A stretch of DNA of 64,000 bases from Niabella ginsenosidivorans (GTDB lineage Bacteria; Bacteroidota; Bacteroidia; Chitinophagales; Chitinophagaceae), in assembly GCF_001654455.1 (NCBI RefSeq), contig NZ_CP015772.1, forward strand, positions 4,898,001 through 4,962,000, read 5' to 3'. The notes beneath the pieces were generated by a model. It was not told where the DNA came from. It worked only from the letters and a program-made list of their open reading frames with translations, and searched no databases. The position numbers and the translations under genes were made by a program. Positions 41,014-61,835 of the stretch are shown here, in pieces; the first letter of the stretch is position 1, and each line of letters begins with the position of its first letter.

Positions 41014-41029
41014 TTACGGGTTCCCGTAA
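41014..41029. promoter_or_regulatory. Palindromic operator of the tracrRNA promoter
   Basis: TTACGG-GTTC-CCGTAA is a perfect palindrome with a 4-nt centre. It ends 21 nt before the tracrRNA -7 box at 41051. The same palindrome-N21-box geometry occurs at 44250, 59701, 60387 and 60772. The centre would be near -43 of the transcript, the position of a class II activator. It also lies about 50 bp upstream of the divergent cas9 start and could affect both. Confidence 0.7.
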
Positions 41030-41050
41030 TAACTACAATAAAAACTAATT

Positions 41051-41058
41051 TATATTTG
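41051..41058 (+). promoter_or_regulatory. tracrRNA -7 box
   Basis: TATATTTG matches TAnnTTTG and ends 5 nt before the anti-repeat, placing the transcript start at about 41063-41066. Confidence 0.7.
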
Positions 41059-41063
41059 CTTTT

Positions 41064-41141
41064 GAAAGCAATTCACAATAAGGATGATTCCGTTGTGAAA
41101 ACATTTAGCGCCTCGCCTATCTGCGGGGCATTTTTGTTTTT
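41064..41141 (+). ncRNA. tracrRNA
   Basis: The anti-repeat GAAAGCAATTCACAA (41064-41078) is complementary to repeat positions 2-16. The II-C-like nexus region AAGGATGATTCCGTTGTG follows. The terminator stem is GCCTCGC (41110-41116) with GCGGGGC (41123-41129) and two T-runs. The mature length is about 70-78 nt. It is transcribed away from cas9. Both repeat lengths in the array share the 16 bases it pairs with, so one tracrRNA can serve all crRNAs. Confidence 0.93.
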
Positions 41142-41164
41142 AGCTATCAGACCTCTATTTTTAA

Positions 41165-41208
41165 AAGAGAGGCATTGCGCCTCTCTTAAATTGAAAGCAA
41201 TTCACAAC
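41165..41208 (-). other. Second anti-repeat / solo half-repeat with adjacent hairpin
   Basis: GAAAGCAATTCACAAC (41193-41208) is a perfect 16-nt complement of the CRISPR repeat start, one base longer than the tracrRNA anti-repeat. Next to it is the 9-bp hairpin AAGAGAGGC-ATTGC-GCCTCTCTT (41165-41187). On the plus strand it would be an anti-repeat without a tracr tail. On the minus strand it reads as a repeat 5' part followed by a hairpin and a T-rich run, like a crRNA-like RNA that could pair with the tracrRNA. No gene is seen between 41209 and 41439 apart from short hairpins (for example CCTGAGAT-GCT-ATCTCAGG near 41373). Confidence 0.6.
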
Positions 41209-41439
41209 TCATCAATCAACCACGTATTATCATTATCAATGAGTTTCAATATTCATTTTGTAAAATTAATAAATATACGTGGATTTATTGATGACAATTT
41301 TAAAAATAAAATTATTTTGTACTATCTTCGTTCCTATAAATGCGAAACGCCCCGTTTCCGGAGCGTCAATCCTGAGATGCTATCTCAGGAGCTGTTCTTG
41401 TATTATCAAAGATAAATTGAAAAATGCAAATAACCAAAT

Positions 41440-42048
41440 ATGGAAAGAATAATTGCTTATATTGACGGATTCAACCTTTATTTTGGGATGAAACAAAATG
41501 GCAACGGCACGCTATGGTTGAACCCACAACAGTTGGTTTTATCTCTATTAAAATCGCATCAGGAATTAATATCGATAAAATATTTTACCTCCCGGATACG
41601 TAATAACCCTGATAAAGAAGACCGGCAAAAGACCTATTTAGAAGCACTCGAAACTCTATCAAACTTTAAAATAACCTATGGCCACTATCAATCACATATT
41701 GAAACATGTCGTAGATGTGGGCATAGTTATCCATACTCTAATGAAAAAATGACTGATGTAAATATTGCCGTCGCAATGATGGAAGACGCGCATAATAGCC
41801 TATATGATACAGCGATTTTAATAACAGGGGATAGCGATTTGGTTCCTCCGATCAATTCCATTCATAATATTTATCCAAATAAAAGAGTATTTGTCGCATT
41901 TCCTCCTAATCGTTCCAATCTAAGCGTAAAAAATGTAGCTAAGGGAAGTTTAGTAATTGGCCGAAAGAAATTAGCAGAGGCTCAATTTCCTCCAGTTGTT
42001 ATAAAAGCAAGTGGGTTTAGGTTAATAAAGCCGAGTACCTGGATATAA
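41440..42048 (+). CDS. NYN-domain (LabA/DUF88-like) putative RNase
   Basis: This 202-aa protein has the NYN/PIN-like catalytic pattern: YIDGFNLYFG at the N-terminus, EKMTDVNIAVAMMEDA in the middle and AILITGDSDLVPPI, giving the conserved Asp set of this metal-dependent nuclease fold. An inserted zinc knuckle is suggested by CRRCGHSYPYS. NYN proteins often cleave RNA, and some are linked with defence. It stands alone between the CRISPR locus and the accessory block. Confidence 0.88.
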   Translation: MERIIAYIDGFNLYFGMKQNGNGTLWLNPQQLVLSLLKSHQELISIKYFTSRIRNNPDKEDRQKTYLEALETLSNFKITYGHYQSHIETCRRCGHSYPYSNEKMTDVNIAVAMMEDAHNSLYDTAILITGDSDLVPPINSIHNIYPNKRVFVAFPPNRSNLSVKNVAKGSLVIGRKKLAEAQFPPVVIKASGFRLIKPSTWI

Positions 42049-42071
42049 AACCTGCTCCTTATACGATTTTC

Positions 42072-42302
42072 TTATCTTTTAATCAATCTGAAAAACTCCT
42101 CAAGCGTTAAATCTCTTGCAGTATAAATTTTGTGCAACGTATAAAGGCTGATTTTATACGCTGTTTTTTTAAAATCAATAATTTGCCGTATTGTTTTTTC
42201 ATCTACCTCATGTTCATCAGCAAAAGAACGCATAGAACCTTCTCATTGGGCAATCCACTCTTTATTGATGTAGTTGCAAATATCGGCACTGAGGCCATGC
42301 AT
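42072..42302 (-). pseudogene. XRE-like regulator remnant, copy A of a duplicated segment
   Basis: On the minus strand MHGLSADICNYINKEW leads to an in-frame TGA. After it MRSFADEHEVDEKTIRQI ... LEEFFRLIKR (53 codons from ATG at 42233) reads like the helix-turn-helix core and end of an XRE regulator. Copy B at 48022-48252 has the same frame, length and TGA. Either a nonsense mutation preceded the duplication, or the short 53-aa frame is a real product. The copies bracket a 5.9-kb block. Confidence 0.6.
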
Positions 42303-42306
42303 TAAA

Positions 42307-42429
42307 TTATCGATCCTCAACCCCGAATTCAAAATCCAGCAGTTTTTTAGGATGAACTTTCAGTCCTTTTGCTATGGCTACTAAAACTGATAAAGTTGTA
42401 CAGTCTCCTCCATTGATGATTTTATAACC
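42307..42429 (-). pseudogene. Degraded helix-turn-helix protein, C-terminal fragment
   Basis: A short minus-strand frame reads INGGDCTTLSVLVAIAKG then LKVHPKKLLDFEFGVED and a stop. This matches the last two helices of XRE-type regulators. No start is found and the sequence further upstream is degenerate. A more decayed equivalent follows copy B near 48255-48380, just beyond the intact XRE gene. Confidence 0.5.
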
Positions 42430-42483
42430 ACCTAGGTTAATTCATCCGCAGCTTCTTTACAGATTTTTAATAGTTCCAAAAAT

Positions 42484-42608
42484 TAAGTATATTTAGCAAA
42501 ATAACCATTTGGAAAATTGAAACTGCTAAAGCAAAATAACCAGAATTATTGCAGAAGAAAACAAAATTTTTAACTAATAAAAACTATTGCACAATCGTAT
42601 TTTAAGCG
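42484..42608 (+). repeat. Repeated leader module, copy 1
   Basis: It begins AAGTATATTTAGCA, contains AACCATTTGGAAAATTGAA and ACTGCT, and ends near TTTTAAGCGTT. About 80% of it recurs at 44334-44460 upstream of the Kiwa-like pair. A weak partial copy (AAGTATATTAGCAAAGCAAC) lies at about 46107. It sits just before the 42686 gene. Confidence 0.6.
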
Positions 42609-42685
42609 TTACAAACAACTGCAAACATTTTGTAATTTCGAAAAATCAGCTCGTTGGTGACAAGTATAGCAGATACCCTAAACAG

Positions 42686-43399
42686 ATGAACGATATAGCA
42701 ACAAACTATTATTTTGGGGGTTACTACTTGACCAAACTCAGGCCTAAAGGTTATGGGTCTGGCTTGGGTAATTTGATATATACTTGCAGCGAGTGCATTA
42801 ATGACCCCTTACTTGACACCTGGTCTTATAGTTGGGCAACGGACAACAACAAACAAATAGACGAAATAAAAAGTAATTTTAAGCTGTCGGAAAACCAAAT
42901 AGACAAGATTAGAAATTGGGTAAACGACAAGATCCAGGACAACAAAATTGGATTTTTAAATGTGTTCCAGGACCTTGAAACCGCACTTGATTATAAAAGC
43001 AGGTTCTTTATTCATTTAAGTGACATAAAAATTTTTGCCCTCTATTTTGACGCAAACGAAAAAGAGGCTATTCTTAAAGAGTTCAGGCCACAATCCGAAA
43101 CCATGAGAGAAATTGGATTGCGTTTGACACTTTTGAAGGAAATACTAGAACCGGAAAACGAAATAGTTTTAGGATACGACTATATTGGAATTGAAATTGA
43201 CGGCAGTTTTCATAGTTTTCATTGCCACGACATCGGGAGGGAACTGGCCGGCAAATTTGGTTTGGTTTTAAACGAATATGGCTTATTTGACAGCAACTTA
43301 AATTCAAAACAAGTGCTCGACTATTTGAACGACGAAAAAAACGGTTGTGAACCCGTTCCCTGGTTTATTGTAAAGACAAAACTTGTGCGGGATGTATAA
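42686..43399 (+). CDS. Protein of unknown function
   Basis: This is a 237-aa protein from ATG at 42686 (MNDIATNYYFGGYYLTK). A TTG at 42587 would add 33 residues from the repeated leader and is less likely. There is no signal peptide or membrane segment. The C-terminal part (GYDYIGIEIDGSFHSFHC ... GCEPVPWFIVKTKLV) is rich in acidic and aromatic residues, like many toxin-immunity proteins, but I recognise no named family. It lies inside the 5.9-kb block bounded by duplicated pseudogenes. Confidence 0.65.
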   Translation: MNDIATNYYFGGYYLTKLRPKGYGSGLGNLIYTCSECINDPLLDTWSYSWATDNNKQIDEIKSNFKLSENQIDKIRNWVNDKIQDNKIGFLNVFQDLETALDYKSRFFIHLSDIKIFALYFDANEKEAILKEFRPQSETMREIGLRLTLLKEILEPENEIVLGYDYIGIEIDGSFHSFHCHDIGRELAGKFGLVLNEYGLFDSNLNSKQVLDYLNDEKNGCEPVPWFIVKTKLVRDV

Positions 43400-43579
43400 A
43401 ACACAGGCCCCAGCAGGCGATTTGGCAATAGGGCGGGGCAACGAAAATAAATGTATTTAAACCAGTAAAAGCAATTATAGATCCCTGTTTAAGCGTTTAC
43501 AAACAATTATAGCCGTTTAATGGCCTCAACAATCGGCGGGTTGGAGGCAACCTTTTCACTCATACCTTAAGACTTTGAA

Positions 43580-44179
43580 ATGAGAAAAACTATAAAATGG
43601 ATTTTAATAATACTTGGTGGCGGGCTTTTACTTTTCTTTGGTTGCGTTTTTTACGTTTTTTCAACTTTCAGATTTGACGACGGAAAACATTATTCAACTC
43701 AAGACCTGATAGACAATTATAATCAAAAGAGCAACCAAATTACTGACTTAAAAACATATGTCAACAAAATTATACCTACGAGCAAATCTGTGGACATAGA
43801 ATTTGAGGGAAATAAAAAATTGTTCATTTTTCATTTGAAGGATACGAACAATTATGACAGCAATTGGGATTTAAACTTAAACTCAGCAAAGACAGACACA
43901 CTTTTGAAAAAACTGAACTGGACAAAAGAAACATTAAAAGTGCTAAAAGAAAAACTTGACGCAGCAAATTGTATTTCTGTAAAAAGTGGCGAACCTTGCA
44001 ATATTGGCTTTCAACGAAGTGGAATGGGAAAATTTTACTATAACATATTTGACAACCCGATCCCAGACAGTTTAAAAAATAAATACAATGACAGTTGTAC
44101 GTATATTCTTTATACAGACAAAGTCGTTTTAGAGTATGGGGGTGGTGCAATTGGGCCACAATGCTTTCCAATAAACTAA
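43580..44179 (+). CDS. Membrane-anchored protein of unknown function
   Basis: This 199-aa protein has an N-terminal membrane segment (IKWILIILGGGLLLFFGCVFYVF), either an anchor or an uncleaved signal. A soluble domain of about 170 residues faces outward and carries two late Cys residues (NCISVKSGEPCNIGF). I recognise no family. The codon use and AT-richness match the surrounding island rather than the carbohydrate locus. Confidence 0.65.
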   Translation: MRKTIKWILIILGGGLLLFFGCVFYVFSTFRFDDGKHYSTQDLIDNYNQKSNQITDLKTYVNKIIPTSKSVDIEFEGNKKLFIFHLKDTNNYDSNWDLNLNSAKTDTLLKKLNWTKETLKVLKEKLDAANCISVKSGEPCNIGFQRSGMGKFYYNIFDNPIPDSLKNKYNDSCTYILYTDKVVLEYGGGAIGPQCFPIN

Positions 44180-44249
44180 TTGGCGGTAAGAAAAGCTACC
44201 GCTAACAAGCAGGTTAGCAATACCGCGAGGCAACAAACACCCTTCCCCT

Positions 44250-44265
44250 TTACGGTTTCCCGTAA
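44250..44265. promoter_or_regulatory. Palindromic operator upstream of the Kiwa-like pair
   Basis: TTACGG-TTTC-CCGTAA is perfect apart from its centre. It is followed after exactly 21 nt by TATATTTG (44287-44294), the same arrangement as at the tracrRNA. The transcript would run toward kwaA, 255 nt downstream, through leader module copy 2. Confidence 0.65.
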
Positions 44266-44333
44266 TCACACCATCTTAAAGCAAAATATATTTGTCCTAA
44301 GACACTAGAATTTTTTTTAACAATTAAAAAAAG

Positions 44334-44460
44334 AAGTATATTTAGCAGTACAACCATTTGGAAAATTGAAACTGCTGAAGCACAAAATACCAGGACGGTT
44401 GCGGAACTAAACAATTTTTTTAACTAATATACGCGATGGCATAGCCGTGTTTAAACGTTT
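44334..44460 (+). repeat. Repeated leader module, copy 2
   Basis: AAGTATATTTAGCAGTACAA ... ACCATTTGGAAAATTGAA ... TTTAAACGTTTAG closely matches copy 1 at 42484-42608. It lies between the promoter at 44287 and the Kiwa-like pair. Confidence 0.6.
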
Positions 44461-44554
44461 AGTAATTGCGTCAATTGGCGAGGTAGTGGCAACCCTATGA
44501 ACCGAGTCCGTGCAAAAATTGAAGAAACAATATAATTATTAACAATCCGTAAAA

Positions 44555-45076
44555 GTGAAACGCATTTATCAACTTTTTCTAGCTTTCAATTCAACTTGGT
44601 TAATTGTTGTTGTTTATCTAGTAAAAGAAAAATATAAGTTCAATATTTTAGACAGTTATCCGATGTATTATTCTTGGGCAATATTCATATTAATTCCAAT
44701 TTTTCTAACTGCATTAAGTTTTTTAATTGCTTTGAAATTGCCAAAAGATAATTTAAGAAGCAATTCTGTTACTGAAATAGAATTAGCCAATAATAATTTT
44801 TTGCCAACCTATTTAGGTTATTTTTTTGTATCGCTTGGTGTTAACGATATTTCAACTTTAATAGTTGTTTTTGGAGTTATTTATGTGTTTACATACTTAT
44901 CACAGACCCTATATTTCAATCCAATTTTTCTACTTTTTGGTTATCATTTTTATTTCATAAAGACGACAACAAATGTGAAAATATTTTTGATTACTAGAAA
45001 AAAACTCAAAGTTCCGGGTGACGAAGAATTCGAAAATCTTAAGAGAATAAATAATTATACATTCATTGACTTATAA
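44555..45076 (+). CDS. kwaA: Kiwa-like membrane protein KwaA
   Basis: This 173-aa protein starts at GTG and has about four membrane segments (residues about 8-25, 40-63, 84-108, 115-135) and a short charged C-terminal tail. Size, topology and position just before a KwaB-like gene fit KwaA, the membrane sensor of the two-gene Kiwa anti-phage system. Divergence from the well-known proteobacterial form is considerable, so this rests on the pair. The downstream gene starts 10 bp after its stop. Confidence 0.65.
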   Translation: MKRIYQLFLAFNSTWLIVVVYLVKEKYKFNILDSYPMYYSWAIFILIPIFLTALSFLIALKLPKDNLRSNSVTEIELANNNFLPTYLGYFFVSLGVNDISTLIVVFGVIYVFTYLSQTLYFNPIFLLFGYHFYFIKTTTNVKIFLITRKKLKVPGDEEFENLKRINNYTFIDL

Positions 45077-45086
45077 CAAATTAATT

Positions 45087-45899
45087 ATGGCGAACTATAT
45101 ATTTGGTAAAGTAAAAAGGAAACAAAAAATGTTTCGAATAATTGAAACTGAGACTCAGGTTTATGATATAGCAAACCTTGTGTTGAATGGAATTGATTAT
45201 AACCCAGCAACCTTAATCGAAGATGAAGAATTATACAAATTGACAAATTTTTCTGAATCGGATTACTGTTTAGACTTCTTAACAAACGAATTAAATACTG
45301 TTGAACATGACCAAATTTCAAAAGAAGATTTAAAGAAATTATCATTTATTTGTACTGTTCAAGACAGTTTATATTTTTTCCAAATAATAAATTCAACCTT
45401 CTTTATAAGTAAAAAATGGTTTTCAATAGATGAATTGACATTAGAAACTGAAAAACCAATAATAACTATTAACTCTTTTGCAGATGCCATTTATGATAAG
45501 CAACAGGATATCTTGTACTTTAAGAAACTTACATCTGCTCAAAAAATCTTTAAAGGAATGGACCAATTGTACAAGGAAGCAACAGAAGCTGAAAGCGAAA
45601 CATTTTTAGAAAATGACTTCCTTGAAGTATCACAAGATTTTGTTGTAGCCCAAATTTCTATACCCAATAGAAAGCGAATAGCTTTAGTAAATGAAACCTT
45701 GAACAGACTTTCCGATGAAGAAAAATTAGCTATCTACAACTATACAAATCAGTATGGCCAAGTTGTATATGAGAATGGTAAGTTCAAAATTGAAAGTGAT
45801 GATGATTTGAAATTTGTTTTATGGGGAATCGAACAAAGATTTTATACAACTCAAGTTGGAGGAGAAAAAAGAGTAGCAAACTCAATAATAAGTATTTAA
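45087..45899 (+). CDS. kwaB: Kiwa-like KwaB (DUF4868) protein
   Basis: This is a 270-aa protein from ATG at 45087 (MANYIFGKVKRKQKMFRI). An upstream in-frame start at 45066 overlaps the previous gene. It is a soluble, acidic protein. The C-terminal block (RIALVNETLNRLSDEEKLA ... RFYTTQVGGEKRVANSI) resembles the conserved end of DUF4868/KwaB proteins, which bind DNA and act with KwaA during phage infection. The family call is from pattern recognition, not a search. Confidence 0.65.
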   Translation: MANYIFGKVKRKQKMFRIIETETQVYDIANLVLNGIDYNPATLIEDEELYKLTNFSESDYCLDFLTNELNTVEHDQISKEDLKKLSFICTVQDSLYFFQIINSTFFISKKWFSIDELTLETEKPIITINSFADAIYDKQQDILYFKKLTSAQKIFKGMDQLYKEATEAESETFLENDFLEVSQDFVVAQISIPNRKRIALVNETLNRLSDEEKLAIYNYTNQYGQVVYENGKFKIESDDDLKFVLWGIEQRFYTTQVGGEKRVANSIISI

Positions 45900-46021
45900 G
45901 GCAGCAATTAACATGGTATTTATAAAAGATGGGCTGACATCAGTTATTAAATTTTTACCAACTATTTTGCCTGTGCCTTGCATAGGTACCCAAACTATGA
46001 CACAAGGATAGAAGCGCTTCT

Positions 46022-46064
46022 TTACGGTTTCCGCAATAATGCTCTGCGATTGAGAATGTTTTTG
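46022..46064 (+). promoter_or_regulatory. Degenerate palindrome-promoter element
   Basis: TTACGG-TTT-CCGCAA (46022-46036) with TGTTTTTG 20 nt later (46057-46064) looks like a weakened version of the palindrome-N21-TAnnTTTG promoter. It would serve the DUF4145 gene at 46203. No gene is seen between 45900 and 46202. Confidence 0.4.
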
Positions 46065-46202
46065 TATAACCAGGGGTAAAAGACTTTTTATCAATTGTAA
46101 AAAATAAGTATATTAGCAAAGCAACTAACTTTGATGAAACAGAAACTGACTGAAAAAAAAAAGAGATTGCTAGACAATTGTAAGATATATACTTAACTAT
46201 TT

Positions 46203-46856
46203 ATGAGTAACATACCCATACATACAAAGACAGGCGACAGGCATATTACAGGGTTGCCAGACAAATGCCCATATTGCCATAAATCAATTACGCCGAATCC
46301 ACTATACGGGCATAAGCATAAGGATAATTTCGATGTGTTTTTCTTTTGTCCTAATGATCAATGTAAGAGATCTTTTATCGGCTACTATGATTGGGGTCCA
46401 GTGGCATCTGTATCTAACTATTTGCATAAAACAAGTTTTGGCTCATTAACTGAAAGAGATTTTTCTAATACTATAAAGGGTATATCAGTCCAATTTGAAA
46501 TAATATATAATCAAGCTTATTCTGCTGAACAGCAGAATCTGATTGAAATATGTGGCGTTGGTTATCGAAAGGCACTTGAATTTTTGATTAAAGATTATGC
46601 AATTCAAAATCATCCTGATGATAAGGAGAAAATTGAAAAACAGTTTTTATCAGCAACTATTGAAAGATATGTAACTGACAGTAGAGTAAAATCGGTAGCG
46701 AAACGAGCTGTATGGCTTGGAAATGATGAAACTCACTATATAAGAAAATGGGAAGGCAAAAACTTGGAGGATTTAAAAAAACTCACAGATCTAACAATAC
46801 ATTGGATTGAAATGGAAGCCTTGACAAAGAGTTTTAATGAAGATATGCCGGATTAG
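46203..46856 (+). CDS. DUF4145-domain protein with zinc ribbon
   Basis: This 217-aa protein has an N-terminal zinc ribbon (CPYC ... CPNDQC) followed by the helical DUF4145 domain with IEICGVGYRKALEFLIKDYA and WLGNDETHYIRKW. DUF4145 proteins occur in restriction and other defence loci, alone or fused to nucleases, and their role is unresolved. There is no membrane segment. It stands just after the Kiwa-like pair in the accessory block. Confidence 0.85.
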   Translation: MSNIPIHTKTGDRHITGLPDKCPYCHKSITPNPLYGHKHKDNFDVFFFCPNDQCKRSFIGYYDWGPVASVSNYLHKTSFGSLTERDFSNTIKGISVQFEIIYNQAYSAEQQNLIEICGVGYRKALEFLIKDYAIQNHPDDKEKIEKQFLSATIERYVTDSRVKSVAKRAVWLGNDETHYIRKWEGKNLEDLKKLTDLTIHWIEMEALTKSFNEDMPD

Positions 46857-47007
46857 TAGTTAATTACAAATACAGAAAAAGACTATGACAATAGCAGTAG
46901 TATAATTTATAATAGAAATCAAAGTATGTAACGGATAAAGCCATTTGTAAATGTTTACATGTTATACTAATTGGCAACTAACTTCGCTTGGTGCTTAATT
47001 AATTGAA

Positions 47008-47979
47008 ATGACGACAAATCAAGATGTTTTAGCGTATTTAAAGTATTACGGGGATTTAGTCGAAGATGGGTATTTAGATGCAAAGAAATCAGCTGATGCC
47101 CTTTATGGCTTCGACAAATCTTTAAGATATTTTCTTTATCAAGAAAATTCAGATATTCAAGATATAGAATTTGAAATTCCTATAAAAATTCAAAAAGGTA
47201 GTTGGGAAGCATTAATTCCGGAAAATATTGAGCAATGGATTAAAACTATTGCACTTATTAGTGCCGGAGCTTATAGTAAGAAAGCATTAGAGAAGATGGC
47301 TGAACGAGATTTTGAAAAGATAGGCTTTAAGGATATATTTAAAAAAGCTTTTCAAGCTTTTTTATGGGTAATAAAAATAGCTAAACACTTAAAGACAATG
47401 CGGAAGCGAGACTTTAAAGATGTTGAGTTTACACAAGACAATAAAATTGTTATAATAAAAAATGATGAGAATCAAAGTCTTTCTGTTCCGATTGAATATC
47501 TAGAAAAATATGCAGGTTGTCCCGAAAATATATTTGCCCAAATAACAAAAATTATTGAACCCCAAAGAGAATTAGAAATAGGACTCAATGATACTGACGT
47601 CAAAGATGACGAAAGAAAAGTCCGCGTAGCCATTAGTGAAAAGCAAATATTTTACAGTAAGGATGAAGATGACGAAATTTTATTCCCAGAATTACAAGAC
47701 GGGCAATATATTGAACTTGGAGGACACATTACAAGAGGAAATGAAAACTCAAATACTATTGGATTCTTTTATAAAGGACATGTTCTTACATGTTCTCCAG
47801 AAAAAGGTAATATCAACGAGCACAAATCAAAATTATTTTCAAATTGTTTAATCAAAGGGCGCATTGATCGGATTTCAAAAGAAGGGGAATTGATAGAAAA
47901 GAGACCAAGAATAATATTTAGCGAACTTATACTTCTTGACAAACCATTTCTTGATTTATTTTCAAACGAAGAAACGTAA
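47008..47979 (+). CDS. Protein of unknown function in the defence block
   Basis: This 323-aa soluble protein has an N-terminal segment DLVEDGYLDAKKSADALYGF followed by DKSLRYFLY, an amphipathic helical middle (AGAYSKKALEKMAERDFEKI) and a beta-rich C-terminal part after about residue 190. I cannot name a family. It is the last gene of the block before pseudogene copy B. The position suggests a defence or stress role, which is inference only. Confidence 0.75.
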   Translation: MTTNQDVLAYLKYYGDLVEDGYLDAKKSADALYGFDKSLRYFLYQENSDIQDIEFEIPIKIQKGSWEALIPENIEQWIKTIALISAGAYSKKALEKMAERDFEKIGFKDIFKKAFQAFLWVIKIAKHLKTMRKRDFKDVEFTQDNKIVIIKNDENQSLSVPIEYLEKYAGCPENIFAQITKIIEPQRELEIGLNDTDVKDDERKVRVAISEKQIFYSKDEDDEILFPELQDGQYIELGGHITRGNENSNTIGFFYKGHVLTCSPEKGNINEHKSKLFSNCLIKGRIDRISKEGELIEKRPRIIFSELILLDKPFLDLFSNEET

Positions 47980-48021
47980 TAGCTAGCAATTTTAAAACAA
48001 ACGACGCAAACGTTAATACTA

Positions 48022-48252
48022 TTACCTCTTAACCAACCTGAAAAACTCCTCAAGCGTTAAATCTCTTGCAGTACACATTTTGTATAAGGTATAAAGGCTG
48101 ATTTTATACGATGCATTTTTAAAATCAATAATTTGCCGTATTGTCTTCTCATCTACATCATGTTCATAAGCAAAAGAACGCATAGAACTTTTTCATTGGG
48201 TTATCCATTCTTTGTTGATGTAGTTGCAAATATCGGCACTGAGGCCATGCAT
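48022..48252 (-). pseudogene. XRE-like regulator remnant, copy B of a duplicated segment
   Basis: This is the same structure as copy A (42072-42302): MHGLSADICNYINKEWITQ, an in-frame TGA, then a 53-codon frame MRSFAYEHDVDEKTIRQI ... LEEFFRLVKR. The two copies are exactly 5950 bp apart and about 85-90% identical by eye, and similarity extends about 100 bp further upstream. It directly follows the intact XRE gene 48386-48634. Confidence 0.6.
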
Positions 48253-48385
48253 TAAATTATCACTCCTCAAACTCAAATTAAAAATCCAGCAGTTTTTTAG
48301 AATGGACTTCCAGTCCTTTTCCTGTGGCCACTAATACTGGATAAAATTGTGTTGTACTTCTCCATTGGAAAATATGTGAAGAAAA

Positions 48386-48634
48386 TCAGTCAGAAAAAAA
48401 ATCCTTTATTTCTGCATCTAAAGCGATAGCCAGTTTAACAAGGGTAAGAAATTCAATATTTTTTTGCCCGTTCTCTATCCTGCTAATTTCCGTTCTGTTA
48501 ATTCCGGAAGCAATTTCCATATCGAGCTGTGTTAACTTTTTCTGTTCTCGGAGTCTTCGAAGGCGTTCACCAAATAGACTTATTTCCTGATTATATCGCT
48601 TTTCAAGTTTATTCACATTTCCAAGGTCTGCCAA
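48386..48634 (-). CDS. XRE-family transcriptional regulator
   Basis: This 82-aa protein has a complete Cro/cI-type helix-turn-helix (LRRLREQKKLTQLDMEIASG followed by INRTEISRIENGQKN) and little else, so it acts as a small repressor or antitoxin-like regulator. A near-perfect palindrome, GTGAGTTATAGCTCAC, starts 17 bp upstream of its start codon. A divergent promoter box lies beyond it. It probably controls both itself and the divergent transcript. Confidence 0.9.
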   Translation of the reverse strand: MADLGNVNKLEKRYNQEISLFGERLRRLREQKKLTQLDMEIASGINRTEISRIENGQKNIEFLTLVKLAIALDAEIKDFFSD

Positions 48635-48650
48635 TGTTAAAAAAAATAAA

Positions 48651-48691
48651 GTGAGTTATAGCTCACATTTTGATTTATATTACTATATTTG
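48651..48691 (+). promoter_or_regulatory. Palindromic operator and divergent promoter
   Basis: GTGAGTTATAGCTCAC (48651-48666) is symmetric at 14 of 16 positions. TATATTTG (48684-48691) is a plus-strand -7 box 17 nt later. The palindrome overlaps the -33 position and lies just upstream of the XRE gene, so the XRE protein is the likely ligand. Confidence 0.55.
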
Positions 48692-48752
48692 TGCTGAAAT
48701 AATATTTTTGCGATTACTTCATAAAATTATTTGAAGCATTCGCTTTCAGTCT

Positions 48753-48861: not shown

Positions 48862-48916
48862 GTAAGTTGAGCACCACGCCTTTTTGTGCGGGTGCCCGGC
48901 CTAAAACTTTTTTGTT

Positions 48917-53513: not shown

Positions 53514-53514
53514 A

Positions 53515-55179: not shown

Positions 55180-56273
55180 TATTCATTATTTTCCTGATAA
55201 AAAGTCCGTAACAGTTCCGTTTCAGCAGTCAGCTTCCTTGTTGCCGTTTTATATTTGGTACGAAACGGATGATCTGCCCAGTATTCATATTTTTCAAACG
55301 CGCTTTCCTGCACCTGTAAGTCATTTTCCAACTGTGCATACAGCAGCTGATATTTCTCCGGATTTATGTTCTCCAGTCTATTGAGATGTGGCATTAAGTT
55401 TTCCCAACAGGTCCTGTTATAATGCCTGTTCCTTTCAACCAGCCGGATGGTGTATTCTTTTTTAAATTGCTCATATTCTTCAAGTATGATCCTATACTCA
55501 ATCAGTGATTTTTGAAAATAAAAATCCGCAGTGCGGATGGAATTGATATTAACAGAAAGAATCTGTTTAGATAAATTATCAAAGTCTGTAATATTCCCCC
55601 CTAATTGTTCCCTCAAATGCCGCAGCCCTTTTTCCGTATCCCTGCTTTCAAAATCATCCCTGAAACTTTTTACTGAAATTTTCCTTATGCCATATTTAAA
55701 ATAAACAGGAAGCAACAGAATGCTGCAAACAAAAACGGTTAGCATCCAGGACAGCGGTTGATTGTTGAGAATGGATTTTAGTATTTCGGCAAACCGGTCA
55801 CCTTCCTCGTAATTATGAGAGAAGATCCACACATTAACGGGCTGTGCTACCACTACCGCAAGAAAGGTTATTAAACCCAACCTGAATAAAAATGAAAAGC
55901 TCAGCAACAGTCTTTTCTCTTTTTTCTTTTCTTCAATAATGATCTTCTTTTTTTTGCCATTCTGAATGATCGTTTTCTTTTGTGCTACGGGCAATAACGC
56001 CGGAGAAATGGTGTATAATAACAGTAAGTAAAGAAGGGTAACCAAAAATGCCCAAACAACGGCTACAGGAATACTGATCCACCGGGCATTGTCAAAAATA
56101 TGCGATACAAAAAGCCCTGCACTCAGCCAGCAACCAACAAATATCAATAGCACAAATGCTCCTATCAACGCAAACCGGATTTGAATACCGGTACTACATT
56201 TCCGTATTATAAAATCGTCTTCGCCTGAAAAAGAACAGAAAAGCAGTCTTAAATTATGAATTGCCTGATTCAT
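55179..56273 (-). CDS. Polytopic membrane protein of unknown function
   Basis: This 364-aa protein has about four membrane helices in the N-terminal half (about 32-52, 65-88, 128-150, 175-195) and a helical C-terminal cytoplasmic region of about 160 residues (FQKSLIEYRIILEEYEQFKK). It overlaps the DUF4407 gene by 20 bp. I recognise no family. The tight coupling implies a complex with the DUF4407 protein. Confidence 0.78.
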   Translation of the reverse strand: MNQAIHNLRLLFCSFSGEDDFIIRKCSTGIQIRFALIGAFVLLIFVGCWLSAGLFVSHIFDNARWISIPVAVVWAFLVTLLYLLLLYTISPALLPVAQKKTIIQNGKKKKIIIEEKKKEKRLLLSFSFLFRLGLITFLAVVVAQPVNVWIFSHNYEEGDRFAEILKSILNNQPLSWMLTVFVCSILLLPVYFKYGIRKISVKSFRDDFESRDTEKGLRHLREQLGGNITDFDNLSKQILSVNINSIRTADFYFQKSLIEYRIILEEYEQFKKEYTIRLVERNRHYNRTCWENLMPHLNRLENINPEKYQLLYAQLENDLQVQESAFEKYEYWADHPFRTKYKTATRKLTAETELLRTFYQENNE

Positions 56274-57531
56274 CAGGAGGTATGTTTTTTATATAGTCAT
56301 CAAGGTTTTCATCAATTCGTTTCTTTTCCCTGTTTTTATATTGCTCCACTGCATAATTTGTAAGCTCCTTTTGTATATCCGTTAGTTTTATTTTTTCATA
56401 AACCATTTTATCTGCTTCATGATTCATTACCAAATGCCGTTCCTGCCCTGCTTTATCTTTATAATAATCATACCGAACTTCAATACCGTTTTCTGCTTTT
56501 ATCAGCTCATCCCGGTTTTCGGCCAGGTAATCATACGGCGTTTTTATAAGCATCAGCTTAAAGAAAACCGGTGTTAATTCTATTGCCATAAACAGCAGGG
56601 TAATAAAAAGGGAAATAACCCAGCCCGCTATTTCATGGGCTTTCTGTATCCTGATCAGCAAGCCGTCTAATGTAGCGGCCTTTTGCTCGGCACTTGCTAT
56701 GTCACTTTTCTTTTCGTCATCAAATTTTTTCATATCCGCTAATGCAGCAAGATATTCCGGAGTATTCTTCAGCTCTTTCAATTGGTTTTCTATAATGCCC
56801 GCCTGGCGTTCCAATTCTTCAGCCCTGGGTCCAAATGCTGCTCCGTTACCATTTTTACCTGTTATTTCTTTGGAAATTTCTGAACGCAGATCGGTAATAG
56901 CGGCTTCTTTCGCGTCAATATCATTCTGAATTTTTCCCAGCTTGGCTTTTGTATCAGCCACTTTTTTATCATAATTTATTTTTGCCTGTTCAATCCCCGC
57001 TTGTTTTTCTTTTTCCTGTTGTTTTTGCACCGCCAGATCAATTTCCGTTTTAAACATTCTTATTTCAACCGGTTTGGAAATGGTCAATGCGATGATGGCA
57101 CCCATCAGGATACGTGGGATGGCCCCTTTTAGTTCTCCCCAGGTTATGGCTTCTGTACCATCGCCTTTACCCGTGCTTGTTACTATAAACCGGTCAATAT
57201 TAAAAATGATGAGCCCCCATATGATACCGAATAAAACAGATAGTATCACCGTTTGGGGATCTGTAGGGATATAGGTTGTATTTTGAACAACCGTTTTTGT
57301 TTTATCAAGAACATCCGCCGTTTTTGGAGAAAAGATCGTATAAAATGCATAGCCGCCTGCAAGGCCGGCCATTGCCCCGGTTGCAAATACAATGCCGCCC
57401 AGGCACATATACTTTACCTGGTCGCTATAGGTTGCCCGTTCCAGCAAATACCGGTCGCCACCCGCGGCCTTCCATAAAAACCGCATGACACTGCTTGAGG
57501 CCGGAGTTACATAATAGTCTCTTACTTTCAT
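56254..57531 (-). CDS. DUF4407-domain membrane protein
   Basis: This 425-aa protein has the DUF4407 pattern: N-terminal helices (YMCLGGIVFATGAMAGLAGG), GIIWGLIIFNIDRFIV, a long coiled coil (about 185-275, rich in K, E and Q) and a further membrane segment near 300 (VISLFITLLFMAIELTPVFF). The family is widespread but uncharacterised. The coiled coil between membrane pairs suggests a large periplasmic or cytoplasmic stalk. It overlaps the upstream gene by 4 bp. Confidence 0.88.
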   Translation of the reverse strand: MKVRDYYVTPASSSVMRFLWKAAGGDRYLLERATYSDQVKYMCLGGIVFATGAMAGLAGGYAFYTIFSPKTADVLDKTKTVVQNTTYIPTDPQTVILSVLFGIIWGLIIFNIDRFIVTSTGKGDGTEAITWGELKGAIPRILMGAIIALTISKPVEIRMFKTEIDLAVQKQQEKEKQAGIEQAKINYDKKVADTKAKLGKIQNDIDAKEAAITDLRSEISKEITGKNGNGAAFGPRAEELERQAGIIENQLKELKNTPEYLAALADMKKFDDEKKSDIASAEQKAATLDGLLIRIQKAHEIAGWVISLFITLLFMAIELTPVFFKLMLIKTPYDYLAENRDELIKAENGIEVRYDYYKDKAGQERHLVMNHEADKMVYEKIKLTDIQKELTNYAVEQYKNREKKRIDENLDDYIKNIPPDESGNS

Positions 57532-58070
57532 ATAAAATCAGTTTGGCTAAATAAGGAATGATTGAGTTGTATGTTCGGGTACCTGAGTTTTACCCGGGAA
57601 TGTTTCAACTGGATGTTTGGAGTAGTAACCGCTAATTTTGAATAGTTGGATAGTTGCGCTTTAATAACTTTGCCCGTGTCATTCAGTTTTCTTAATTCTA
57701 TTTTAAACAATTTGCTTTTTACGGTTTTCTCAGCAATTACAGAAATGAGAAACTTTTTTTTCTTAAAAAATCCATGTACCACCAATTCAACCGGTATTAC
57801 AGGCACATTTTTCAGGTTCAGAATAAGAATTTCCTGTTCTGTTGTTCTCTTAATATTTTTAAAGTTGTACCAAAGCGCGTTTCTGAACCGGTAACGAATT
57901 ACCAGGTAGCTTTTGTCAAACAGGTACCTTTCTGCATAAGAAAGTTGTAAAAGCGTAATGGCTTTTCGCCGCCTGAAAAGGACCCTGAAAAACCGCCCGA
58001 TAATGATAAATACGAATTTTATCTTTTTTCCTGCAGGCTTAATATAGTCGGAGAAATAAAAAATCGTCAT
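57528..58070 (-). CDS. First gene of the DUF4407 operon, unknown function
   Basis: This 180-aa basic protein has one hydrophobic stretch near the N-terminus (KFVFIIIGRFFRVLF) and a beta-rich remainder. The pattern ILNLKNVPVIPVELVVHGFF resembles proteins with a conserved N-terminal beta domain, such as the DUF4138/TraN-like fold, but not convincingly. Its stop overlaps the DUF4407 start (ATGA-type), so it belongs to the same operon. Confidence 0.68.
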   Translation of the reverse strand: MTIFYFSDYIKPAGKKIKFVFIIIGRFFRVLFRRRKAITLLQLSYAERYLFDKSYLVIRYRFRNALWYNFKNIKRTTEQEILILNLKNVPVIPVELVVHGFFKKKKFLISVIAEKTVKSKLFKIELRKLNDTGKVIKAQLSNYSKLAVTTPNIQLKHSRVKLRYPNIQLNHSLFSQTDFI

Positions 58071-58148
58071 TACTTGTTTTGATACTTGCGATTATTAAAG
58101 AAGATCCTGTTCCGATACAAACCGATGCAACAAAATACAGGGATACAT

Positions 58149-58499
58149 TTAATTACACAGGCTCCGGTCTACATACACTTTATTACCGCCGGATGTAAGA
58201 TAATAGCAGCCGCCTCTTTTTCCCCGGTAATATACCCTGCCGGCGGTGGATTTGCGGGTAGTTGTTTTCTTTTTAATTGCAGTACTGCTTTTGCTAAAAT
58301 CAGAGCTGTACGCGTTATTAATCCCTACATTTTTGTTATTTACAGATGGTTTTTGTTCACTGACATACTCCCAGGTATAATTGCTATACAGCTTTACGGT
58401 GGCCCCATCTGTAGTCTTTACGATATGCTTCACTTTTTTCTGAGCGCAGGAAGCATGAGTAAACAAAGACAGCATTAAGAACTGGATCACCCGGCTCAT
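58149..58499 (-). CDS. Small secreted basic protein
   Basis: This 116-aa protein has a signal peptide (to THASCAQ) and a Lys/Thr-rich linker. The C-terminal motif GKRGGCYYLTSGGNKVYVDR ending in Cys resembles the short basic-adaptor-type domain (GPRGGRYY...GKKVYV) found in many bacterial and viral proteins. It is probably periplasmic or secreted. Its ATG overlaps the stop of the HsdR-N-like gene, so the two are translated together. Confidence 0.72.
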   Translation of the reverse strand: MSRVIQFLMLSLFTHASCAQKKVKHIVKTTDGATVKLYSNYTWEYVSEQKPSVNNKNVGINNAYSSDFSKSSTAIKKKTTTRKSTAGRVYYRGKRGGCYYLTSGGNKVYVDRSLCN

Positions 58500-59608
58500 A
58501 GTGTAGCATTTAGTTGTTCCTTTTCACTGTTTTTCTGATAATTACTAACCGTAGCCAGCAATTCCTTCCGGTACTGGTAAATATCATCCAGCGATGCCAG
58601 CAGCTTCCGCTCGCCATTATCTTTCCCCTTGTGAAATAATTCCAGGTACTTTTTTGAAAAATTAAAATGCAGTCTGGCCAGCGGTTTGCGGTTATTATCG
58701 TCCAGCAAAATGCCAAAATAAGACTGGGTGTCCCTGAAGGAGATACGTGCGGCCGGAACCACTTCCCGCAGAATAGCTTTTATGATCTGCGAACCTTCTA
58801 TTTCCTCTTCCGTAGTGATCAGTTTTGGTGAATCCGGGTTCTCGTCAATGGGTGCAACTTCCCTTTGCTCCTGTTTTGAAGGATTTTTCTCATTGATGTT
58901 TAAGGCATTCTTCAGCCGGAAGTTGATGGACTCATTAATAGAATTGGAGATGGCCCTTCGGGCATATTCTTTAAAGCTGGCAAGCCGGGATGCTGTTAAC
59001 GGCTTTTCAAAAAATCGGTTCACCAGCAACTTTACCAGCTCATCCGACGGATCTTTGAGCTCTTTTTCAAACTCGTTCCGGATGGCCTTTATATACTTTA
59101 AGTCCTCCGCTGAATCCAGGATGCCTTCCAGGTTGTAGCCGTTCCTGGTAAATTTTTCCAGGATCTTGATACCGGAGTCTTTAAGGTTGGAAAGTTCCAG
59201 GGTAAAAAAGGGTTTATCATCCATAATGTTCGGGCGCTCCAGGTCTGCATAAAAATTATATACCAACCCGTTTGTCAGTACTCCAAAACGCGATTTGGAA
59301 ACATGATAATACCGGTGCAGCTGGGAATTGTGCGCATCTGCATTTTCTTTCCAGTGCTTACATTCAATGATCAGGATGGGCTTGTCCTCTTTTTTGATCA
59401 CATAATCGATCTTCTCTCCTTTTTTTGTCCCGATGTCGCAAATGTATTCGGGGATCACTTCGGTCGGGTTAAAAATATCATACCCCAGGATCTGGATAAA
59501 AGGCATTACAAAGGCATTCTTTGTAGCTTCTTCTGTATGGATCTGGTCTTTCAGCGCAGCTACCCTCTGGTGCAGCTGCTCCAGCTTTAGTTTTAAATCA
59601 TTTTCCAT
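58496..59608 (-). CDS. Stand-alone HsdR-N (type I restriction R-subunit N-terminal-like) protein
   Basis: This 370-aa protein has an N-terminal PD-(D/E)xK-like domain (about 20-150) with Asp in KKGEKIDYVIK and the Glu-x-Lys pair in PILIIECKHW, as in HSDR_N domains. A helical middle and a small C-terminal beta domain (ISFRDTQSYFGILLDDNNRK) follow. No helicase domain or partner M/S genes exist, so it is not a type I system. Single proteins of this kind are common in Bacteroidota and may be nucleases of unknown role. It lies downstream of a palindrome-promoter element (59701). Confidence 0.85.
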   Translation of the reverse strand: MENDLKLKLEQLHQRVAALKDQIHTEEATKNAFVMPFIQILGYDIFNPTEVIPEYICDIGTKKGEKIDYVIKKEDKPILIIECKHWKENADAHNSQLHRYYHVSKSRFGVLTNGLVYNFYADLERPNIMDDKPFFTLELSNLKDSGIKILEKFTRNGYNLEGILDSAEDLKYIKAIRNEFEKELKDPSDELVKLLVNRFFEKPLTASRLASFKEYARRAISNSINESINFRLKNALNINEKNPSKQEQREVAPIDENPDSPKLITTEEEIEGSQIIKAILREVVPAARISFRDTQSYFGILLDDNNRKPLARLHFNFSKKYLELFHKGKDNGERKLLASLDDIYQYRKELLATVSNYQKNSEKEQLNATL

Positions 59609-59671
59609 TTTACGGCAGTTATTTTATGAACAGCAGTTTTTTTGATAACAAAAACATTTAATAATCTACAG

Positions 59672-59716
59672 CTAAGGTAACCGGCGATCCTTCACATCCA
59701 TTACGGGAAACCGTAA
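59672..59716 (-). promoter_or_regulatory. Palindrome-promoter element of the HsdR-N gene
   Basis: TTACGG-GAAA-CCGTAA (59701-59716) is followed on the minus strand after 21 nt by TACCTTAG (59672-59679), one mismatch from TAnnTTTG. The gene starts about 60 nt further. Confidence 0.55.
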
Positions 59717-59809
59717 ACAGTAAAATTTTTTATCTTAAAAAAACGGTGCTTTTCAAGCAGGCTAATAGATTATATACATTTGGTTGCACAAGCTTATAAC
59801 CCCCTGGTA

Positions 59810-60331
59810 CTACTTTCCGAAGGGCTTTTTGCGATGCCGCCAGTTCCAAGGTGCCACCGGCTTTTCGTCTGCCCAAAGCCCCTTTTTCTGAAGCCGGGCG
59901 GCCGTTTCCAGTGCCGCATATTCCCTGCTGTGAGAATATCTTTTAAAATGCCAGGCGAGGCCATTCTTTACCAGCTCTTTGTTGAGGTTCCGCCCGTCCT
60001 CCAGGATCACTTCTGCGATCAGCCGCTTATTCCGGTCGTATTGATGCTGTTGAATGAGGGTCACTTCTTTACCAAAGCATAAGCCGGCAGCAAACTGTTT
60101 GGCCCGGTTTCCAAAGGGCTGTTTCTTTTCCGGGCAGTCAATATGCGCCAGGCGCACCACCTGTTGTTTCCCCCCGATCAGCAATACAAAGGTGTCGCCA
60201 TCCTTTATGCCAATTACCTTGTAGGCTTTTTTGTTTTCAGCACCGCTCAGCCCGCTGTTATACGTTTTACCCGATAAGCCATTACAGGCAATCAAAAGCA
60301 GCAAAAGAATGGTTGCACTCCAGCGGATCAT
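59810..60331 (-). CDS. Thermonuclease (SNase)-family lipoprotein
   Basis: This 173-aa protein has a lipobox (LLLLLIACNG). The staphylococcal-nuclease fold is clear: VIGIKDGDTFVLL, catalytic Arg in VVRLAHIDCPEK, Glu/Arg pairs in KQPFGNRAKQFAA and YDRNKRLIAEVILEDGRNLN, and GLAWHFKRYSHS. It should be a membrane-anchored extracytoplasmic DNA/RNA nuclease. A near-ideal palindrome-promoter element lies just upstream. Confidence 0.92.
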   Translation of the reverse strand: MIRWSATILLLLLIACNGLSGKTYNSGLSGAENKKAYKVIGIKDGDTFVLLIGGKQQVVRLAHIDCPEKKQPFGNRAKQFAAGLCFGKEVTLIQQHQYDRNKRLIAEVILEDGRNLNKELVKNGLAWHFKRYSHSREYAALETAARLQKKGLWADEKPVAPWNWRHRKKPFGK

Positions 60332-60357
60332 TTATTAGAAGAGTTATTGCTTTTGCA

Positions 60358-60402
60358 CAAACTTATCATTGCAGGGAGTATCCTCATTACGGAAAACCGG
60401 AA
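60358..60402 (-). promoter_or_regulatory. Palindrome-promoter element of the thermonuclease gene
   Basis: TTACGG-AAAA-CCGGAA (60387-60402, one mismatch from symmetry) is followed after exactly 21 nt by TAAGTTTG (60358-60365), 26 nt before the ATG. Confidence 0.7.
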
Positions 60403-60510
60403 TGAATGGATGCAGCATGGGTATAACCTTTTTCGATTCGTGAGGACGCGAACCGGGGCAATCAGCCGTAAATACCAACAACAATTTAATTGCCCGGAGC
60501 ATCTTTAAAA

Positions 60511-60726
60511 TTACTTACACACCCCGCAACTGCCCCCGTCTTTTGAACAATGCTTGCAATACCTGCAATTTTTACAGGCCCTGCATGATTTGCTGCCGGT
60601 ACAGGTTGCCATTTCATTTTTGTATCCCGCTTCAGCAACATACAGGCGCTCATTACTTGCGGCGCTGCAGGAGGCCAGGAATAAAAAGATAAAAACGCAA
60701 CGCTTAGAGCGATTAAAAGACTTCAT
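60511..60726 (-). CDS. Small Cys-rich lipoprotein
   Basis: This 71-aa protein has an N-terminal hydrophobic signal with lipobox LFLASCSAAS. The mature part ends in a dense Cys array (CRACKNCRYCKHCSKDGGSC) like a metal-binding or disulfide-rich knot. The function is unknown. It has its own near-ideal palindrome-promoter element. Confidence 0.72.
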   Translation of the reverse strand: MKSFNRSKRCVFIFLFLASCSAASNERLYVAEAGYKNEMATCTGSKSCRACKNCRYCKHCSKDGGSCGVCK

Positions 60727-60742
60727 CTTCTGTTTATTTCTG

Positions 60743-60787
60743 CAAATGTATCCGCACGGAGAACCGGAGCATTACGGAAAACCGTAT
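60743..60787 (-). promoter_or_regulatory. Palindrome-promoter element of the Cys-rich lipoprotein gene
   Basis: TTACGG-AAAA-CCGTAT (60772-60787) is followed after exactly 21 nt by TACATTTG (60743-60750), a consensus -7 box 16 nt before the ATG. Confidence 0.7.
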
Positions 60788-60821
60788 TATTCCAGACCAA
60801 AGAAAGGTAAACCCCACACTG

Positions 60822-61787
60822 CTAATTTGACTTTACAGGCAGCGGCTGCTTTTTTAAAGGGAGGATATGTTTTTCATAAATATACCCGGTCAGAGGCTTT
60901 AGTGTGCGTTCTGTATAAACAGGATGTACACCCCTTTCTGTATAAAACTCAATTTTTCTGCCAAACTTTATGTAAAATACCTTGTTAATATCTGCTTCCG
61001 TAATCGTATCCGGCCGGGTTATCTTTTTAAAATAAACCAGCTTTTCAGAATCCAGCGCAATTACTAAAGCGCCATGCACTTTTTGGCTGCAGGATATTTG
61101 CTGGTAATGATCACCGGCCCAGTACATACAGGAACCTTTCATTGAGCTCGCCATAGGACCAGGTACACTCTTATTTGTTCCAACCCAATAAATAATGATT
61201 CCTGCCAATACTACTATAATTGCCGAAAGAGCAACAGGCCCTTTTTTAATATGAAAACCGGTCTTTGAAAAATTAGTTCCAGACCTGGTAACCGCTATCT
61301 GCAGTCCTTCATTCGGATTCGTCAACGCTTTGTCCGGTTGGTCGGATCCATTGGAGGTCTCCCCGTTTTTTTCTTTGTTACAGTTATATTTCTCCGTTCC
61401 GTCAATCGTTGTTTCTGAGTTTTCAGGATGATCGTAATGTCTTCCCAACTCAAAAGGCCTTGGTTCAAAACCGATCAACCAGGCAAGGAGCTCAATATTT
61501 TTTTCGTCTGTTGATGCGGTTTCTTTTCTCAGAAATTTTATCAGTGCTTTGAACTTATCTGCTTCATATCTCTTTATCGCCTTCAGTATTACTGCCTGGT
61601 CATTCCCTTCTCCAAAAAAAGCTTCCAAGACTCTTCCATCTTTCCTGGAAAATCTTTTTGTACAAGCCCTCAAACATGCTTTTTTGATTTTTGCCGGCGT
61701 TGGCTGCATAAGATCTAACGGCAGGTCATTTTCACGCTGCTTTTTCTCATAAAGCTGCAAAACAAGTTCCTGGTATTGCTCAAACAT
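60822..61787 (-). CDS. Single-pass membrane protein of unknown function
   Basis: This is a 321-aa protein from ATG at 61787 ([20 protein letters not shown]). A TTG at 61805 would extend it by six residues. The N-terminal half is cytoplasmic and helical, with a Ser/Asn/Glu-rich linker. One membrane helix is near residues 190-212 ([18 protein letters not shown]) and the outer domain is about 110 residues. The topology resembles anti-sigma-like or sensor proteins, but no motif proves it. Confidence 0.75.
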
Positions 61788-61791
61788 GTTA

Positions 61792-61835
61792 CAAAGTTTG
61801 TGCAATAAAGCTACGGAATTTACGGAATCCCGTAA
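61792..61835 (-). promoter_or_regulatory. Palindrome-promoter element (looser) of the 61787 gene
   Basis: TTACGG-AATC-CCGTAA (61820-61835) is symmetric. AAACTTTG (61792-61799) lies 20 nt away, one mismatch from the consensus. Further TACGG/CCGGAA half-sites crowd 61812-61880. No gene is seen from 61880 to 62140. Confidence 0.5.

Follow-up and report, generated by a model that had tools for sequence, protein, structure and literature searches.

The window (the whole stretch of DNA that was analysed, 64,000 nucleotides, positions 4,898,001 to 4,962,000 of contig NZ_CP015772.1 of Niabella ginsenosidivorans) carries, between 41 and 62 kb, six copies of the palindrome TTACGG-N4-CCGTAA followed by promoter-like -7 boxes, next to a type II CRISPR-Cas system (Cas9, a tracrRNA recognised by eye and a repeat array), a Kiwa pair (KwaA and KwaB, both with moderate scores) and genes for nuclease-like and small lipoprotein-like proteins (Table 1). 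Four palindromes are exact and two have one mismatch, as an earlier note on this DNA had described them, and at five of the six the box lies exactly 21 nt beyond the palindrome. At the sixth (61820) the reported spacing of 20 nt stands, whereas its box deviates from TAnnTTTG by one mismatch, and the weaker form reported at 46022 is in fact a decayed copy (TTACGG-N3-CCGCAA) upstream of a partial repeat of a leader that is discussed below. The carbohydrate half of the window, which was said to lack the palindrome, contains only copies with 2 mismatches (at 1777 and 9784); at this tolerance the whole window has 10 palindromes versus 2.15 expected from shuffles. One site had been overlooked, at 63961 inside a histidine kinase gene, where a palindrome with 2 mismatches is followed at 21 nt by a perfect box that extends beyond the window end.

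The kinase gene is directly followed, beyond the window edge, by the gene for a response regulator of 221 aa (64064-64729), and both genes adjoin the sites at 60-62 kb. The regulator has a NarL/FixJ-type receiver domain (Pfam Response_reg, E 1.7e-7), and E9, D10, D59, S94 and K117 are invariant across 15 regulators. A structure search with its model (mean pLDDT 86.4, helices at 157-217) returned RcsB first (E 5.1e-11, about 23% identity), RcsB was also the best match of a profile search (1.6e-9), and the full-length structural matches (RcsB, LiaR, VraR and DesR) share the LuxR-type C-terminal four-helix helix-turn-helix that the model also contains. Judging from the model, the protein appears to be a NarL/FixJ-type, RcsB-like response regulator.

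Table 1. Features of the window; operators and promoters are predictions from the sequence.
Feature	Position	Strand	Remarks
CRISPR array	31941..34844	.	47-nt repeats, some longer with insertion
Cas9, 1425 aa	36688..40965	-	RuvC_III, HNH_4
-7 box toward cas9	40986..40993	-	TAACTTTA, 20 nt from operator, 1 mismatch
Operator between divergent cas9 and tracrRNA	41014..41029	.	TTACGGGTTCCCGTAA, exact; boxes on both sides
-7 box toward tracrRNA	41051..41058	+	TATATTTG, 21 nt from operator
tracrRNA, ends approximate (by eye)	41059..41140	+	anti-repeat TGAAAGCAATTCACAA complementary to CRISPR repeat; terminator-like hairpin
NYN-domain protein, downstream of tracrRNA	41440-42048		
Further leader copy	42463..42641	+	E 3.8e-26; no operator found there
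Partial leader copies	43446-43539, 46081-46148		partial matches
Operator upstream of Kiwa pair	44250..44265	.	exact
-7 box, Kiwa promoter	44287..44294	+	TATATTTG
Leader upstream of Kiwa pair	44302..44482	+	nhmmer E 1.3e-41; itself among the nine members of the model
KwaA	44555..45076	+	PADLOC E 5.7e-13
KwaB	45066..45899	+	PADLOC E 1.9e-10
HSDR_N-domain protein, 370 aa	58496..59608	-	Pfam E 2.9e-14; recurrent target
-7 box, HSDR_N promoter	59672..59679	-	TACCTTAG
Operator upstream of HSDR_N protein	59701..59716	.	exact
Thermonuclease-like protein	59810..60331	-	SNase E 5.8e-26; lipoprotein-like N-terminus (by eye)
-7 box, SNase promoter	60358..60365	-	TAAGTTTG
Operator upstream of SNase lipoprotein	60387..60402	.	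1 mismatch
Cys-rich lipoprotein-like protein, 71 aa	60511..60726	-	open reading frame; similar proteins at other sites
-7 box, Cys-rich protein promoter	60743..60750	-	TACATTTG
Operator upstream of Cys-rich small protein	60772..60787	.	1 mismatch
Conserved protein, membrane segment by eye	60822..61787	-	open reading frame; start at inner ATG
-7 box, membrane protein promoter	61792..61799	-	AAACTTTG, 20 nt from operator
Operator upstream of membrane protein	61820..61835	.	exact
Histidine kinase, N-terminal TPRs, 549 aa	62418..64000	+	runs to 64067; TPR_12, HATPase_c
Operator and start of box within kinase gene	63961..64000	+	reads toward regulator gene (outside window)

In a whole-genome scan, as was proposed earlier, the palindrome combined with the box at 21 nt is enriched, with 11 matches in the own genome (up to 2 mismatches) versus 1 for the control, and in 17 congeneric genomes 83 matches (up to 1 mismatch) were found, while the reversed pattern gave 0. 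At all seven exact palindromes of the own genome, four of which fall within this 21 kb, a box follows after 20 or 21 nt and deviates from the consensus by one mismatch or none. With the spacing left free (8-34 nt), 32 of the 37 exact matches in the congeneric genomes are at 21 nt (reversed control: 1), the remainder being two at 10, one at 19 and two at 31 nt; both 31-nt matches are promoters of the 61820 type, whose box at 20 nt deviates in one position. This search replaced a count within the fetched loci (32 of 130 at 21 nt), which was circular since these loci had been chosen by the 21-nt pattern. The same circularity affects the arm and box columns of the aligned sites (82 congeneric, 88 from named species), so that information can be drawn from the gap and flank columns alone; between arms and box, base preferences are weak.

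TAnnTTTG is the -7 consensus of the primary sigma factor in Bacteroidota, to which the boxes conform (TTAG variants were also observed), and a -33 element TTTG is expected 19-21 nt upstream of it. No TTTG was found at this distance in the 82 and 88 aligned sites, where its place is occupied by the inner arm of the palindrome, ending 21 nt from the -7 box. The activator-like placement over the -33 region, as claimed in the earlier note, is thereby retained, and because the spacing is fixed and the -33 element absent, the protein that binds here would probably activate transcription. Repression, with the palindrome blocking RNA polymerase and the defence genes being freed when the kinase is off, is distinctly unlikely: the site does overlap the -33 region, where repressors also act, and, according to its abstract, one study has CovR repressing a cas9 promoter in another genus (PMC12216829), but a spacing fixed almost to one base argues against it, as does the inner arm in place of TTTG 19-21 nt before the box, which would make for a poor promoter without help.

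The distribution of the motif follows that of the response regulator, which was searched for with cut-offs of E up to 1e-30 in 59 relatives (own genome included) and up to 1e-25 in a class-wide sample. It was found in 16 of the relatives, i.e. 13 of the 17 members of the genus plus G024, G025 and G031 (the G003 match has internal stops and that of G012 spans residues 70-221). These 16 genomes contain 150 motif matches with up to 2 mismatches (control 18) versus 20 in the other 43 (control 34), and within the genus all 83 matches with at most one mismatch are in the same 13 regulator-bearing genomes, with 0 in the four lacking the regulator. In the class-wide sample, 6 of the 119 genomes have the regulator and the identical 6 have the motif (the control matched once, in another genome), and in a phylum sample the motif is present in 22 of 247 genomes (control: one match in each of two). 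A scan of 84,980 named species yielded at least 119 stretches with the motif; among the 80 matches listed, all but two stand under names belonging to Bacteroidota, and the two exceptions are contigs of one metagenome-assembled genome labelled Bifidobacterium, which are probably mis-binned. The regulator was present in 48 of the 50 motif-bearing named genomes examined (50 of the 80 listed), with E 2.7e-48 as the weakest match. The scope therefore extends far beyond one genome, and from such comparisons of sequences the regulon is real and widespread, with a candidate regulator that can be named.

The earlier note had assigned the palindrome to an activator of the Crp/Fnr family, which the two-fold site centred near -43 would suit, given that class II activation uses such a position. 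A Crp/Fnr protein is now a highly improbable reader and was dropped as such, since the presence of the response regulator mirrors that of the motif, both in the 119 class genomes and in the genus, and the regulator operon itself carries conserved sites, with the kinase and regulator genes adjoining those in the window (no search for Crp/Fnr genes was made). The predicted reader of the operator is probably the pair of TPR kinase and RcsB-like regulator.

Of 21 regulator loci, 14 have a site with up to 2 mismatches and a box at 21 nt about 100 nt upstream of the gene, and 13 of these sites fall within an identified kinase gene (the second locus of G006 gave no kinase match). In 13 of the 21, a site in the same direction lies within 300 nt downstream of the gene, several of these pointing to small genes. 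The embedded site is read as Thr-x-x-Arg (ACG GNN NNC CGT) in 15 of 19 kinases, with varying middle residues (Glu/Val, Asn/Ser/Thr) and constant outer codons. Among 11 congeneric kinases its third-position identity is 1.00 (mean 0.61, 473 codon windows), tied for the top with the codon window one codon earlier, and the box comes third with 0.91; among 17 kinases it scores 0.88, second to the codon window one codon earlier (0.91), with the box third at 0.87 (mean 0.545, 449 codon windows). Because the embedded site, read toward the regulator, ties for the most conserved third codon positions, autoregulation of the regulator is suggested. G006 carries a second regulator copy (L101 10277-10942), beside which no kinase match was found, and two regulator matches also occur in G082 and several named species. 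Flavobacterium johnsoniae is among the species with the motif (L212) and has two copies of the regulator (G442).

Among 69 chosen genomes, 27 have a Cas9 match; for most of those outside the genus the regulator was taken to be present or absent according to the motif. In all eight congeneric cas9 loci with the regulator, the palindrome (up to 1 mismatch) lies between cas9 and tracrRNA and a tracrRNA-side box (up to 1 mismatch) follows at 20-21 nt, while the site is present at none of the three congeneric loci without the regulator and absent from eight of nine other loci taken as lacking it. Of seven cas9 loci outside the genus in motif- or regulator-bearing genomes, one has a good site (G209), and Pedobacter chinensis, whose genome was found via the motif itself, has perfect boxes on both sides of its cas9/tracrRNA site. 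In G023, a genome without a regulator match, a similar Cas9 has a palindrome with degenerate boxes next to it (L330 position 2438), perhaps a relic left by transfer.

Targets were tabulated for 82 congeneric sites (all of the 83 but G016:C196, which sits at the end of a contig), with genes called as longest open reading frames, so that some first reading frames are spurious (e.g. one over tracrRNA); no reading frame of at least 100 aa lies within 600 nt at 23 of these 82 sites and at 20 of 89 sites in named species. By our own non-exhaustive tally, about 20 of the 82 serve recognised defence systems, i.e. 7 cas9/tracrRNA sites and 13 others (L054 and L124 being counted by similarity to scanned systems, and some through a second or third gene). 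PADLOC matches were obtained for a TIR-TM protein in the own genome (1.8e-101), a CBASS cyclase (7.9e-156) with TIR effector (1.5e-119), PDC-S06 (PrrC-like), Ppl (1.6e-122), PDC-M11A (1.1e-207), PDC-S28 (4.3e-118), PDC-S37 in two operons and AbiH (1.4e-11 across 39 residues; Pfam gives AbiH at 1e-33 for one target), and in total for 16 of 20 hand-picked target proteins. In named species the targets include a ThsA/SIR2-like protein (1.7e-17), a PLD-like protein (DrmC 1.1e-6), C5 methylases (3 of 68), HsdM, ResIII and Cas9, as well as families not known for defence, such as Exo_endo_phos (6) and DUF1508 (5), and numerous proteins that are uncharacterised. Defence clearly belongs to the regulon, and the expectation that many defence and nuclease genes would be among the targets is borne out. 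An argument from PADLOC tallies was dropped, and no P value for enrichment is claimed, since target and random sets both match: 37 families in 57 target genes versus 47 in 75 random genes (25 viewed for each, the latter largely helicase/ATPase models).

It is quite conceivable that the regulon run by the kinase/regulator pair is a general envelope or DNA-stress response of which defence is only one branch. Targets that recur most often are HSDR_N proteins (in 6 of 57 first genes), secreted-nuclease-like, DUF1508, TerB_C and small lipoprotein-like or Cys-rich proteins (several named by eye; 25 of 58 Pfam families were viewed in one target list), and RcsB, VraR and LiaR, near the regulator in the structure search, serve envelope stress. 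On the other hand, unrelated defence systems recur at the sites across species, whereas random genes of the same genomes (n=75; 2 of 20 control regions that overlap site regions were left out) give TonB plugs and metabolic enzymes among 25 of their 93 Pfam families.

Downstream of the operator, nine loci have a leader of about 200 nt in common (66-84% pairwise identity), despite differing genes behind it (TIR, Kiwa, CBASS twice, DUF2130/PDC-S37 twice, an AAA ATPase, a PrrC-like gene and one more). In the genus, 25 copies occur in 8 of 17 genomes, all eight regulator-bearing and mostly in short arrays, and in the window the copies at 42463, 43446 and 46081 each precede an open reading frame. 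The leader, in which an invariant TTAGCA is possibly part of a second -7 box, could be a promoter-leader cassette or a recombination site. Part of the regulon might then be a mobile cassette whose recurrence at defence genes results from spread by recombination and not from selection for co-regulation; the similarity of the leader in front of unrelated defence genes and its short arrays fit this, yet it is unlikely, as no leader match accompanies the window's cas9/tracrRNA, HSDR_N, SNase and kinase sites and some leader copies (e.g. at 42463) have no operator. Leader loci elsewhere, often short arrays, include L047 (6028-6233), L124, L051-L054, L057, L134 and L135.

Two other identities of the leader were considered: a structured RNA is unsupported (0 of 13 predicted pairs have changes on both sides), and an integron attC site was rejected because its GTTRRRY end is, as judged by eye, not conserved. 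Rfam returned for 40000-62000 of the window only a snoRNA (E 0.0036) and a ribozyme (0.82), both below the cut-offs and read as chance matches.

The exact composite was also found in 70 stretches of IMG/VR viral contigs (L353-L422; reversed control 0), upstream of genes for CI-like repressors and many small proteins (names by eye). Some of these contigs may be prophages with host flanks, so that part of the stretches may be host DNA.

The whole is very probably best explained by a dedicated two-component system that controls a dispersed regulon. The histidine kinase, with its (probably periplasmic) N-terminal TPRs, would sense a cue and phosphorylate the response regulator, a dimer of which would bind TTACGG-N4-CCGTAA, with its inner edge 21 nt from the -7 box and in place of the -33 element, and recruit RNA polymerase in the manner of class II activators, no -33 box being required. 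One symmetric site would in this way turn on tracrRNA and, less surely, cas9, while other defence systems (in the own genome Kiwa and the TIR gene), nuclease-like proteins and small envelope proteins would be induced as well, and the site inside the kinase gene would drive the regulator itself, resulting in positive feedback. A single signal may thus activate much of the cell's immunity at once. As a tentative and rather doubtful extension, the system could be a dedicated alarm of the Bacteroidia. Its TPR kinase, facing the envelope, would signal phage attack or some related insult, and by way of a single operator with positive feedback, adaptive immunity (cas9 and tracrRNA in step) would rise together with the innate systems that a strain has acquired. 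New systems would join by gaining the operator, in part within a promoter-leader cassette, and phages would have connected genes of theirs to the same alarm.

Several results weigh against control by this pair as set out above. The bare palindrome is not enriched in the own genome of 5.63 Mb (7 exact copies versus 5 of the reversed control, and 33 versus 43 with up to 1 mismatch) and was dropped as a marker of the regulon. The Pfam scan of the regulator gave no helix-turn-helix match, no regulator match was found in 2 of the 50 motif-bearing genomes (a metagenome-assembled Flavobacteriaceae genome, L184, and Kaistella, L202), and the co-occurrence is partly owed to the sites at the regulator locus itself. 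There, 4 of 19 kinases (G024, G025, G078, G082) carry changes in the arms of the embedded site, embedded site and box are at the 2-mismatch limit in 13 of the 19, and the own genome has no site just downstream of its regulator gene. Of the 8 congeneric cas9 loci, only 6 have a cas9-side box with no more than one mismatch (that of G001 has 2, and G003 has none usable), and outside the genus four of the seven cas9 loci have no site (G031, G112, G197, G257) and two a weak one (G229, G273). Lastly, many targets fall outside known defence genes (Exo_endo_phos, DUF1508, lipoproteins), and PADLOC models match random genes too.

The closest solved relative of the regulator is RcsB of the Rcs phosphorelay, which is, as far as abstracts describe it, an envelope stress system; with about 23% identity and in other organisms the likeness is one of fold and profile, and the Rcs kinase architecture differs from that of the TPR kinase. 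CovR belongs to the OmpR/PhoB fold class, unlike the regulator here, and Marinomonas mediterranea is a gammaproteobacterium. Judged by titles and abstracts, the closest known cases are the BarA/UvrY-like PpoS/PpoR of the latter (PMC8523701) and CovR of Streptococcus agalactiae (PMC12216829). Like the present pair, PpoS/PpoR is a kinase with a response regulator upstream of CRISPR-Cas, controlling two such systems and phage resistance, but it acts with a CsrA/sRNA cascade, and its abstract reports no common operator across many unrelated defence systems (PMC8523701). CovR is likewise a two-component regulator acting directly on cas transcription, but it acts as a repressor at a distal promoter and as part of a virulence network, and the abstract mentions no two-faced site (PMC12216829). 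For the kinase architecture, the closest case is FimS/FimR of Porphyromonas gingivalis, a Bacteroidota kinase with a periplasmic TPR sensor domain and its cognate activator, which however controls fimbriae (PMC11053733); the two are likened by architecture. Titles and abstract openings, covering few subscription papers, contained no report of this operator or of a two-component regulon that joins these systems.

When bacteria express their costly immune systems is an open question, and the cases cited here answer it for single strains. In many Bacteroidota the sequence itself shows one operator and one regulator gene, so that strain-specific regulons become predictable, the arming signal for these genes can be put to a direct test in tractable species, and the motif may help to find further defence genes.

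Regarding the other genes of the window, the inner ATG was taken as the start of the membrane protein (nothing matched in Pfam or NCBIfam), since the longer reading frame would overlap the box. The box at 61792-61799 then ends 4 nt upstream of this ATG, which suggests a leaderless transcript; the same gap is seen in L060, L101 and L131. The limits given for the CRISPR array are set by the copies that were listed, and 8 copies of one repeat family are not among them. Its repeats are of two forms, one of 47 nt and a longer one with TCCCGAACAATCGGGA in mid-repeat, and both contain TAACTTTG, a -7-like box.

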